A stretch of 42,517 nucleotides of DNA. Origin: Cloacibacillus sp. GTDB lineage: Bacteria > Synergistota > Synergistia > Synergistales > Synergistaceae. The notes beneath the pieces are model-generated. The model ran no database searches. It had not been told where the DNA came from and saw only the letters and a program-made list of their open reading frames with translations. The translations under genes were made by a program, and so were the position numbers. Below are positions 34,971 through 37,878 of this stretch, in pieces; the stretch's first letter is position 1; each line of letters starts with the position of its first letter. Location: the NCBI GenBank assembly GCA_036655895.1, contig JAVVPF010000015.1:24001-66517 (forward strand), in the 5' to 3' direction.

Positions 34971-35403
34971 CGAACCAGGCATAGAAACGTAAAACTCTTG
35001 GGTTTAAAAAACATGACGGAGATAAAAAGAGACTGTAGTCTCTACCTGCGTAATACTGAATAAACACGGAACCGGAGAATTATTTTTTTTCGCAAGAGGG
35101 CGGCGGATTGTGCGGAAAAGCATGACAACCGTATGCATACGACGGCGCATGATTGTCCGGTTATACCTGAAGGCGGCGAAAAGCAGGCATTCACAATAAC
35201 GAAAATAACGGAGCCGCTGACATACACTGTGACGAATAGCGAAATGATAAAGATAAACTTGCTTGCGCGTTGCTTGATGGATAAGAGCGAGAAAAATGAT
35301 CAGCAATAAAATAGTCTGAATCAGACGGGGTTTGTTTTACAGAATTTGCTTGCGCGTTGTTTGATGGGGTATACTTATTACATAATTGGAGGAGGTGACA
35401 GCA
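34971..35403 (+). other. Gene-poor region between wbpM-like gene and the AlbA_2 ATPase
   Basis: No credible coding frame. Contains a small palindrome AGAGACTGTAGTCTCT (35026-35041 area), which may end wbpM transcription, and the left direct repeat (35256-35367). A possible promoter for the ATPase (TTGCTT at 35346-35351, 18-base spacer, TATACT at 35370-35375) uses repeat sequence as its -35. The stretch looks like decayed or imported DNA. Confidence 0.5.
35256..35367. repeat. Left ~112-bp direct repeat flanking the AlbA_2 ATPase gene
   Basis: Begins and ends with a 25-bp unit containing TTGCTTGCGCGTTG and ending TGATGG (35256-35280 and 35343-35367). Between them is a terminator-like AGTCTG/CAGAC hairpin with GTTTGTTTT. 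A near-identical element lies at 36880-36992 in the same orientation; most positions match by eye. Confidence 0.9.
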
Positions 35404-36870
35404 GTGAAGGTTTCTTATCAAGATGAGCATTTAGAAAGTCTCGTAAAAGAGCTGTGTCATCTTACGACAGAAATAGAATGCGTGGAATTTAAGCTCAACA
35501 ATGCCAAACCTGATGAAATAGGAGAGTATATATCAGCTTTATCAAATACAGCCGCCATTACGGGGCAACCATATTCGTACCTTATTTGGGGAGTCGATGA
35601 CGAAAGCCACGAAATTGTAGGCACAACATTCACTCCAGCCAGAGAAAAATGCGGTAATGAGGACTTAATCAATTGGCTATCATGTCTGCTTGCGCCTAAA
35701 ATCAGATTCCAATTCTTAACCGTCAATATCGATACTAAAGAAGTTGTCGTTTTGGAGATATCAGCAGCAACACATACGCCGGTAAGTTTCAGGGGAACAG
35801 AGTATATTCGTATAGGCTCCTATAAAAAGAAACTTAAAGATCACCCCGAGATGGAGCGTGCGTTATGGGCCGCTTTTGAAAAACGACGCTTTGAGCAGGA
35901 AATTGCTGCGGAAAAATTAAGTGCGGATCAAGTATTGGAATATATATTTTATCCGGCGTATTTTGATTTGCTTAAAAAAAACTTGCCTGGCAGCAAGAAT
36001 GCTATTCTGAAGGAACTAAATTCAGAAGAAATAATACAGCCAGACTCTCATGGGAAATGGAACGCTACTAATATGGGAGCGATCCTTTTTGCGAAAGATA
36101 TCACGAAATTTAAAGGATTGCGCCGCAAGGCTGTACGTGTAGTATTTTATAAAGGCAGTAGCCGTATAGAAACAGAAAGGGAAGTTGAGTTTACAGGAGG
36201 CTACGCTTTTTCCTATGAAGAAATAGTGAGTTATGTTACAGAATTGTCACCGAAGAAAGAGATAATAGAAAAAGGCATCCGTAAATCTATCTCACTATTT
36301 CCGGAACTGGCGGTACGTGAATTGATCGCGAATGCGCTTATACATCAAGATTTTTATATCAGCGGGACCTCGCCAATGATTGAGATCTTTAGTGATAGGA
36401 TAGAAATAACAAATCCTGGCCTCCCTTTGATCGCCGTTGAAAGGTTTTTGGACACCCCACCTAAATCTAGAAACGAGCACATCACGTCGTTGCTTAGACG
36501 AATAGGCGTATGTGAGGAACGAGGAAGTGGAATAGATAAAGTTGTTGCTATGACTGAATTCTATCAGCTGCCTGCTCCGATATTTGAAACTATGCCAGAG
36601 CATACGCGCGTTGTCCTTTTTGCTCACAGATGTTTTAAAGAAATAGATAAGAGCGAACGTATAAGGGCGACATACCTCCATGCTTCATTAAAATACGTAG
36701 AGAGAAAAAGCATGACAAATAAGACATTGCGGGAACGATTTGAACTAGACGTAAAGAACAGCGCCACAATTTCACGAATAATAAGAGATACCATTGAAAT
36801 TGGATTAATAAAATGCCAAGACGATACGGTAGGAACTAAGGCAAAAAAATATCTTCCCTATTGGGCATAA
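35404..36870 (+). CDS. AlbA_2 (Schlafen-type) domain ATP-binding protein
   Basis: 488 residues from a GTG at 35404, chosen because GGAGGAGG lies 8-10 bases upstream. The N-terminal AlbA_2/Schlafen domain has VEFKLNNAKPDEIGEYISALSNTAAITGQPYSYLIWGVDDESHEIVG and YIRIGSYKKKLKDHPE. The middle/C-terminal GHKL-like ATPase region has FPELAVRELIANALIHQDF, IEIFSDRIEITNPG and RRIGVCEERGSGIDKV. A winged-helix-like tail follows. Often annotated as RecG-like or DNA-binding regulator; true role unknown. Much more AT-rich than its surroundings (36241-36300 has 20 G/C of 60), bounded by direct repeats, and inserted between polysaccharide genes: strong signs of acquisition. Confidence 0.85.
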   Translation: MKVSYQDEHLESLVKELCHLTTEIECVEFKLNNAKPDEIGEYISALSNTAAITGQPYSYLIWGVDDESHEIVGTTFTPAREKCGNEDLINWLSCLLAPKIRFQFLTVNIDTKEVVVLEISAATHTPVSFRGTEYIRIGSYKKKLKDHPEMERALWAAFEKRRFEQEIAAEKLSADQVLEYIFYPAYFDLLKKNLPGSKNAILKELNSEEIIQPDSHGKWNATNMGAILFAKDITKFKGLRRKAVRVVFYKGSSRIETEREVEFTGGYAFSYEEIVSYVTELSPKKEIIEKGIRKSISLFPELAVRELIANALIHQDFYISGTSPMIEIFSDRIEITNPGLPLIAVERFLDTPPKSRNEHITSLLRRIGVCEERGSGIDKVVAMTEFYQLPAPIFETMPEHTRVVLFAHRCFKEIDKSERIRATYLHASLKYVERKSMTNKTLRERFELDVKNSATISRIIRDTIEIGLIKCQDDTVGTKAKKYLPYWA

Positions 36871-36879
36871 AACCGTTGG

Positions 36880-36992
36880 AATTTGCTTGCGTGTTGCTTG
36901 ATGGATAAGAGCGAAAAAAATGACCAGCAATAAAAAAAGCCTGTATCAGACTGGGTTTGTTTCATAGAATTTGCTTGCGCGTTGTTTGATGG
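36880..36992. repeat. Right ~112-bp direct repeat flanking the AlbA_2 ATPase gene
   Basis: Same layout as 35256-35367: 25-bp units at 36880-36904 and 36968-36992 around a hairpin/T-tract. Copies at 35343-35367 and 36968-36992 are identical. Its hairpin lies 60-90 bases beyond the ATPase stop and may act as that gene's terminator. Confidence 0.9.
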
Positions 36993-37190
36993 AAAATGAA
37001 TGAATATCGTTGATTATATTTCACAGCCAAAGCAACATAGACAGGCTTCTATTGCAGAAGTTTGTTTGCAGCGATTGTGCTATTTGGGGTAGGCGTTATC
37101 ACACATAAACTCCGTGATAGCCTCTTTTTTATACGATTCACAATTTTTTGCAGCAATAGCTGCAACAAGGTTAAGATTACCGAGAGGGAC

Positions 37191-37217
37191 GAAGTGGGTA
37201 GCGCCACTACCCACTTC
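37191..37217. repeat. Perfect inverted repeat in gene-poor DNA
   Basis: GAAGTGGGTAG, 5-base loop, CTACCCACTTC: 11-bp perfect stem with no T run, so not an ordinary terminator. Role unknown. Confidence 0.8.
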
Positions 37218-37552
37218 AAGGACGGTATCCAATATTACTTAAGGGGTTCCAGCTCCTCCCCTTTCACCTGGATAAAAGTAAGCGTTGTCCCCTCCACCGA
37301 TACCGGAAAAACGCCGCGTCAAAAGACTTGAACAAAGCAAATTGGTATTGGAACAGCTAATTGGCATAGGCAGGTGATATTTGACGCTTGTGGATAGTCT
37401 TTAAAGAACCGGCATTCTAATAAAATCACTTCTCCTATGCAAGACTAGTAATAGGGTAGCAAATAAAAGTTAGAAACTGATGCCGCCAAAGCTTTACTAT
37501 AAATTAACGGCTATGAGCATTTCATTGATTTTCTGGCCCCGATGATTTCTCC

Positions 37553-37669
37553 ATGTTTGTGAATGTGACCAAGACACACTTAAAAACGGTCTTGTTATAT
37601 ATCGTATCAGCCATGTTGTTTAGCTTTCTATTGATTGCTCTGATTTTTATGGAGCAAATGAGGAGTTAA
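37553..37669 (+). CDS. Possible small hydrophobic protein (38 residues)
   Basis: ATG at 37553, stop at 37669. The middle (VLLYIVSAMLFSFLLIALIF) would be one membrane helix with charged ends. There is no good ribosome site and no homologue is recognised, so it may equally be a chance frame or a remnant. Confidence 0.15.
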   Translation: MFVNVTKTHLKTVLLYIVSAMLFSFLLIALIFMEQMRS

Positions 37670-37878
37670 ATAAGTGGTAAGCTAAACGTCATACATAATT
37701 TAATAGTTGCAGATGGTATCATAGTGGTGCTAATATATAAATGTTAATGCCAATATCTAGGCAAACACAGGATAGTTTTCAAGGTGCTCTGATGTGGGTA
37801 GCATTAAATAATGTTTCTGGAATTTTGGGAAATATAAATAAAACTGAAATAGAATATAAGCGCTAAGGTGCGATGCAT

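Follow-up and report, generated by a model that had tools for sequence, protein, structure and literature searches.

A paired DNA element, made of two like sites a whole number of helical turns apart, accompanies a family of Schlafen-type defence genes and is also found alone in phages. One member of this gene family lies in the window, by which is meant the whole 42,517-nucleotide stretch of a Cloacibacillus sp. genome that was analysed. No description of the paired element was found in the literature searched, and a search of the literature with the unit sequence returned titles that seem to reflect unrelated primer matches. In animals, proteins of the Schlafen type act against viruses. Bacterial proteins of this type have been reported to be linked to defence, and the element provides a concrete handle on their restraint and triggering. 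Its helically quantised spacing and its place beside the gene open it to simple assays of binding, of shifts in phase by 5 or 10 bp, of relocation and of deletion, and its presence in many phages that lack the gene raises a direct question as to its role there.

The window gene (35404..36870, + strand) encodes a protein of 488 amino acids with the domain order Schlafen/AlbA_2, HATPase_c_4, winged helix. Alignment with homologs indicates that the GTG at 35404, which follows AGGAGGTGA (ribosome-binding site 35390-35398), is the likely start rather than the TTG at 35386. The SLFN_AlbA_2 domain (35473..35835, + strand) scores 65.5 bits against PF04326, for which the cut-off is 25.3, and the GHKL-type HATPase_c_4 domain (36364..36618, + strand), with NALIHQD and ERGSG motifs, scores 78.4 bits against PF13749, which is also over the cut-off. 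The sequence-only reading had named the gene an AlbA_2/Schlafen-type ATPase that is more AT-rich than its flanks, and both claims hold: its GC content is 40.1% against 55.4% for the window, the 10th lowest among 411 stretches of the same size. The acidic triad E23, E28 and D66 of the first domain has a spacing (E-5-E-38-D) identical to that of E205, E210 and D248 in the RNase rat SLFN13, by which the N-terminal domain would be Schlafen RNase-like. A structure model with a mean pLDDT of 87 adds a C-terminal winged helix (residues 416-485; 36649..36858, + strand), the modelled helices and strands agreeing with such a fold at high confidence. In a Foldseek search the best whole-chain structural match was DIP2311 (3lmm; E 2.5e-20), which is also the sole PDB sequence match of the protein, while human Schlafens match the N-terminal domain. 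No NCBIfam model was found for the protein and PADLOC gave weak partial matches only. The same genome carries a second AlbA_2/ATPase gene (L001, 1468-2895) that belongs to a different subfamily and is without the paired element.

Two composite repeats in the same orientation bound the window gene, at 35256..35367 (112 bp, + strand) and 36880..36992 (113 bp, + strand). Their identity is about 90%, with a single indel between them, and a 25-bp unit stands at either end of each; the unit consists of two heptads (TTGCTTG-N4-TTGCTTG) that are 11 bp apart. In the upstream composite a 62-bp spacer separates unit 1 (AACTTGCTTGCGCGTTGCTTGATGG, 35256..35280, + strand), with its two half-sites at the 11-bp step, from unit 2 (AATTTGCTTGCGCGTTGTTTGATGG, 35343..35367, + strand), which ends 2 bp 5' of a -10-like TATACT (35370-35375); a promoter, lacking a good -35, is presumed at this site. 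The downstream composite, identified by comparison with homologs as the conserved 3' element of the gene family, begins with unit 3 (AATTTGCTTGCGTGTTGCTTGATGG, 36880..36904, + strand), 9 bp 3' of the stop codon, and ends with unit 4 (AATTTGCTTGCGCGTTGTTTGATGG, 36968..36992, + strand), 88 bp (8 x 11) past unit 3. A consensus scan identified a hairpin in each spacer, that in the upstream one (GTCTGAATCAGAC, 35314..35326) being small and terminator-like on both strands and that in the downstream one (36938..36952) terminator-like on the - strand. The direct repeats of about 112 bp that the sequence-only reading had described are thus present with 25-bp units at both ends; a hairpin does lie between the units as it had claimed, but measures just 5-6 bp, has an ordinary RNA folding energy and does not represent a conserved RNA structure. 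Like that reading, the present analysis saw no transposase or inverted ends around the gene.

On both sides of the gene the direct-repeat pair exceeds what is seen in dinucleotide shuffles (p=0.005, the floor with 200 shuffles). A search of the whole 2.9-Mb genome allowing up to 3 mismatches found the unit at four places only, all of them in the window, as against one match for the control. The repeats are therefore not general intergenic elements in this genome, yet in phages similar paired sites do occur apart from this gene. Viral contigs contained no match to the exact 25-bp window unit and genome contigs a single one, at an IS30 end, which is near the chance expectation; a reading of the units as an IS30 end was rejected because no transposase is nearby and all four units of the window lie between genes. 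The downstream repeat is separated from the transferase gene by about 860 bp of DNA (36993-37850) with 38% GC and no clear gene, for which no long DNA match was found among 60 relatives.

Homologs of the gene were taken from its own phylum, from plasmids and phages, from E. coli and from viral contigs, and are mostly 40-55% identical. In nearly all of them two like units occur within a few bases 3' of the stop codon. Paired or iterated 3' units were seen beside homologs from the gene's own phylum, Proteobacteria, Campylobacterota, Thermodesulfobacteriota and Cyanobacteriota, whereas in Firmicute satellites and Hymenobacter the element is 5' of the gene instead (pair against shuffles, p<=0.015). 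The 3' pair exceeds shuffles in 16 loci (p=0.005, the floor), and two homologs (L015, L044) have no recognisable pair. The general form of the unit is TTGAYSG-N4-TTGA with half-sites 11 bp apart, and in the 3' regions the core TTG[AC]YSG-N4-TTG[AC] was found 84 times in the sense direction (13.9 expected) and 17 times, which is background, in the antisense direction; whether 3' or 5', the element always has the orientation of the gene. The sequence of the unit varies by locus (TTGCTTGAT.., ATTTGAT.., TTTTGATC.., TATGTGAC.., AACTTGC.. and GTGTTTTAACGCAAA) while the copies within a locus are alike, and even divergent families with divergent units (L021, L043, L045, L012, L024) still have their two copies alike and separated by multiples of 11 bp. 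Within the phylum the gene is sporadic (6 of 188 genomes) and the paired pattern was found nowhere else in these 188 genomes. Only the window, one of 24 loci, has a copy on both sides; the other 23 have it on one side, nearly always 3'. The window is thus a variant with an extra upstream copy next to the presumed promoter, and its two-sided layout is a local peculiarity.

The distances from unit to unit fall at 54-55, 65-67, 75-78, 87-90, 97-100, 108-110 and 120 bp; these distances, like the class labels of the units, are partly hand-curated, and in Cupriavidus, Burkholderia and some other loci, where the first unit is degenerate, they are measured between one good and one weak unit. A period scan of the spacings (n=27) gave a best period of 10.9 bp with R=0.87, a value reached by none of 2000 random sets subjected to the full scan. 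The pairs at Schlafen loci are therefore two like sites at whole helical turns, as looping operator pairs require. The consensus for IHF is WATCAANNNNTTR, and this was observed 5 times in 25 spacers between units as against an expectation of 0.20. RNA folding z-scores of the elements scatter around zero and are not below those of shuffles, and hairpins in the Schlafen-locus spacers are at chance (2 of 25, 1.6 expected). Since helical quantisation and IHF sites are signatures of DNA and the RNA folding is ordinary, the element appears to act as DNA rather than RNA. When protein domains were compared with unit sequence by partial Mantel test, corrected for the rest of the protein, the winged helix co-varied with the unit (r=0.24, p=0.002) and the other domains were not significant. 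This effect is small, and for a putative recognition helix of 24 residues taken alone it was not significant (p=0.099).

The sequence-only reading had also raised a role in defence, and the surroundings of the homologs lend support to this. Homologs occur within type I restriction-modification (RM) operons, in the gap between hsdM and hsdS, in that between hsdS and hsdR, or, on a Providencia plasmid, directly 5' of hsdR. One lies between genes for a DUF1156 protein and a phospholipase D-like (PLD) anti-phage protein, and others are in satellites or beside a retron. In E. coli, a homolog with the element, present in 4 of 5426 genomes, adjoins retron St85 and satellite-like genes (L025, 3655-8813). 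Where E. coli operons have hsdR DNA 96% or 73% identical to that of Providencia, the slot is filled by two DUF262 genes or by DarTG and no unit is present. Because the unit is absent where DUF262 or DarTG fills the slot, the element is part of the Schlafen module and not of hsdR. Across related type I RM loci (L016, L048, L049) the hsdR-proximal slot holds the Schlafen gene, two DUF262 genes or DarTG, and by these comparisons the Schlafen module appears as one of several exchangeable modules in type I RM operons. The genomic context of its homologs makes the window gene a candidate for an anti-phage role.

Viral contigs carry the element as well. The exact class-A unit occurs in 56 viral stretches as against none for the reversed control, mostly in coding sequence and often in linkers. 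Both strands and all three frames are represented, and it is therefore DNA and not peptide that is conserved. A viral search by motif alone for two cores 54-84 bp apart found 66 stretches, 54 of them distinct, with peaks at 54-56, 65-67 and 75-78 bp; for the 54 a period of 11.15 bp was obtained, with an R of 0.58 that none of 1000 null scans reached. Most motif copies in viral contigs are not beside a Schlafen gene, and the records with lone pairs mostly lack one, some of these records perhaps being fragments. One stretch matched by motif only (L305) has the C-terminus of a Schlafen homolog, then the pair and then an apparent hsdR start. Pairs of the form TTGAYSG-N4-TTGA, 54-84 bp apart at 11-bp multiples, lie in both intergenic and coding DNA of phage contigs that lack the Schlafen gene (L147, L188, L343, L318, L345-L399 and others); in some of them (L343, L347, L387) the DNA that separates the units has a hairpin resembling a terminator. 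In a further four contigs (L051, L053, L067, L101) two to four tandem 11-mers (TTGCTTGATGG) occupy the linker of apparent phage replication-initiation genes, with AT-rich DNA adjacent, and could be origin iterons. Different short phage genes in L052, L061, L066, L074, L082 and similar contigs share a common tail (SSNDQAISDCSVSNLCQNDTQNSLPIKQ) of which the DNA begins at the unit, as if the ends of these genes had been joined there.

Since pairs of units lie at whole helix turns beside the gene, DNA looping by the Schlafen protein is suggested, and the reading that we favour, with somewhat better than even confidence, takes the element as a looping pair of sites bound by this protein, the loop controlling expression and/or keeping the protein quiet. 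A defence-type gene would thus travel with its own paired DNA-binding element. The winged helix would sit head-to-tail on the two 11-bp-spaced half-sites of a unit, in the manner of OmpR/PhoB proteins on direct repeats of 7+4 bp, and the protein would bridge two units on the same face of the DNA, looping out the 54-120 bp between them, sometimes with the aid of IHF. The complex beside the gene might then regulate it and/or hold the ATPase-RNase quiet until infection disturbs the complex. Comparison of sequences provides the link between element and gene in many phyla, the 11-bp step, the quantised spacing, the enrichment of IHF sites and the co-variation of the winged helix; that the Schlafen protein is the binder, that the DNA is looped and that this serves regulation is what we infer. 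An autoregulatory operator would not normally lie 3' of its gene, and several loci have no other gene close behind; both points count against the proposal. Another factor may be the real binder, because most viral copies of the motif lie away from a Schlafen gene. A more speculative extension, which we regard as quite improbable, is that the Schlafen protein acts as a sensor of the lone phage pairs, being kept in a quiet looped state by its own element until the paired sites of an infecting phage draw it off and activate it.

The sequence-only reading had envisaged a cassette that moves or is lost by recombination between its flanking repeats, and turnover at the locus is indeed apparent. In two relatives, G020 and G015, capD and the transferase gene are adjacent without the Schlafen gene, the neighbouring proteins being 77-78% and 81% identical; these loci are candidate empty sites, the total absence of which would have told against that reading. 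The locus of G015 has one unit (AATTTGTTTGCGTTTTGTTTGAT), about 27 bp past the end of the capD match, and that of G020 has none. Among 53 genomes of the family TTTGYTTGCGNNTTGYTTGAT was found without mismatch only at the G015 locus and at the window's own sites, of which one unit differs from it by a single mismatch. The single unit may be the scar of a loss or the site of a gain and in either case supports turnover, whatever the mechanism. A cassette defined by two flanking composites does not carry over to the family, since the other 23 homologs are one-sided. The element might still be an att-like recombination or insertion site, the gene with its 3' element forming a mobile cassette for which existing units are the points of entry and exit. 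This would fit the window gene between direct composites, the single unit left in G015, the sporadic distribution of the gene, the lone elements in phages and the abutment of the element on the stop codon in fixed orientation, much as attC abuts an integron gene. We nevertheless consider it unlikely: no recombinase linked to the element was found, window ORFs included, nor any tandem array in which a series of different genes carries it; the upstream copy is missing from 23 of 24 tested loci, the window composites differ by about 10%, and the gene-less locus of G020 has no unit. Deletion between direct repeats, moreover, would leave a whole composite and not the one unit of G015.

The abundance of the motif in viruses allows a reading in which it is a general site of phages and mobile elements for some other host or phage factor, in replication or nucleoid function for example, and Schlafen genes merely ride on the same elements. 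The class-A units on both strands and in all frames of viral coding sequence, the 66 stretches with paired units and the lone-pair records that showed no Schlafen gene (although these may be fragments) agree with this. It is made rather improbable by the fixed sense position directly past the stop codon of one gene family across phyla, by the divergent families of which the divergent units still form two like copies at 11-bp multiples, by the co-variation of the winged helix with the unit and by the lack of pairs elsewhere in the 188 genomes of the phylum. That the repeats act as RNA, a repeat-hairpin-repeat transcript being bound or cleaved by the Schlafen RNase after the fashion of a type III antitoxin, might be suggested by the Schlafen fold, the spacing of the RNase triad and the constant sense orientation of the element on either side of the gene. 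The ordinary folding scores, the chance level of spacer hairpins and the helical quantisation and IHF sites, which point to DNA, leave this very improbable. A segmental duplication without function, in the intergenic DNA on either side of a horizontally acquired gene, would account for a composite that occurs just twice in the genome and for an AT-rich, acquired gene; it is already contradicted by the counterparts of the downstream copy beside homologs in many phyla and is given hardly any credence.

Several known systems share features with the looping pair of sites that is favoured here. Integron cassettes likewise have a gene followed immediately by a short site in fixed orientation (attC). 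attC is an inverted-repeat structure and needs an integrase; neither was seen at the window locus. Type III toxin-antitoxin systems use a structured repeat RNA, whereas the folding here is not below that of shuffles and hairpins are at chance. RptR, a regulator of type I RM islands whose operons include accessory modules (DarTG, for example), binds to direct repeats (PMC12255303), but is a small separate repressor acting on 9-bp repeats with TAGCTA at the operon promoter; as a different protein with a different site it was rejected as the binder of the element. The OmpR-type winged helix protein PhoP recognises 7-bp direct repeats with 4-bp spacers (PMC4832192), and this 7+4 bp geometry of PhoB/PhoP boxes is the same as that of the half-sites in the family's unit. 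Looping operators of the lac type show effects of spacing at about 11 bp per turn in vivo, as do the unit pairs here, the fitted helical repeat being 10.95-11.6 bp/turn (PMC1762422). What sets the family apart from both PhoB/PhoP and lac is the usual location of the pair, 3' of the gene, and a presumed binder in which ATPase and RNase are fused. The uncharacterised DIP2311 of Corynebacterium diphtheriae (3lmm) has a whole-chain fold like that of the window protein at 17% identity. Proteins in which a Schlafen RNase is followed by a minimal histidine-kinase ATPase and a wHTH, with links to BREX and related systems and present in at least 1017 taxa, are described in part of a report (PMC12839542) that in turn cites work on bacterial Schlafens in defence (bioRxiv 10.1101/2025.07.24.666596). 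As far as that part goes, these proteins have the same domain order as the window protein and are likewise found inside or beside defence operons; it makes no mention of a paired repeat element, whereas the family of the window gene has one.
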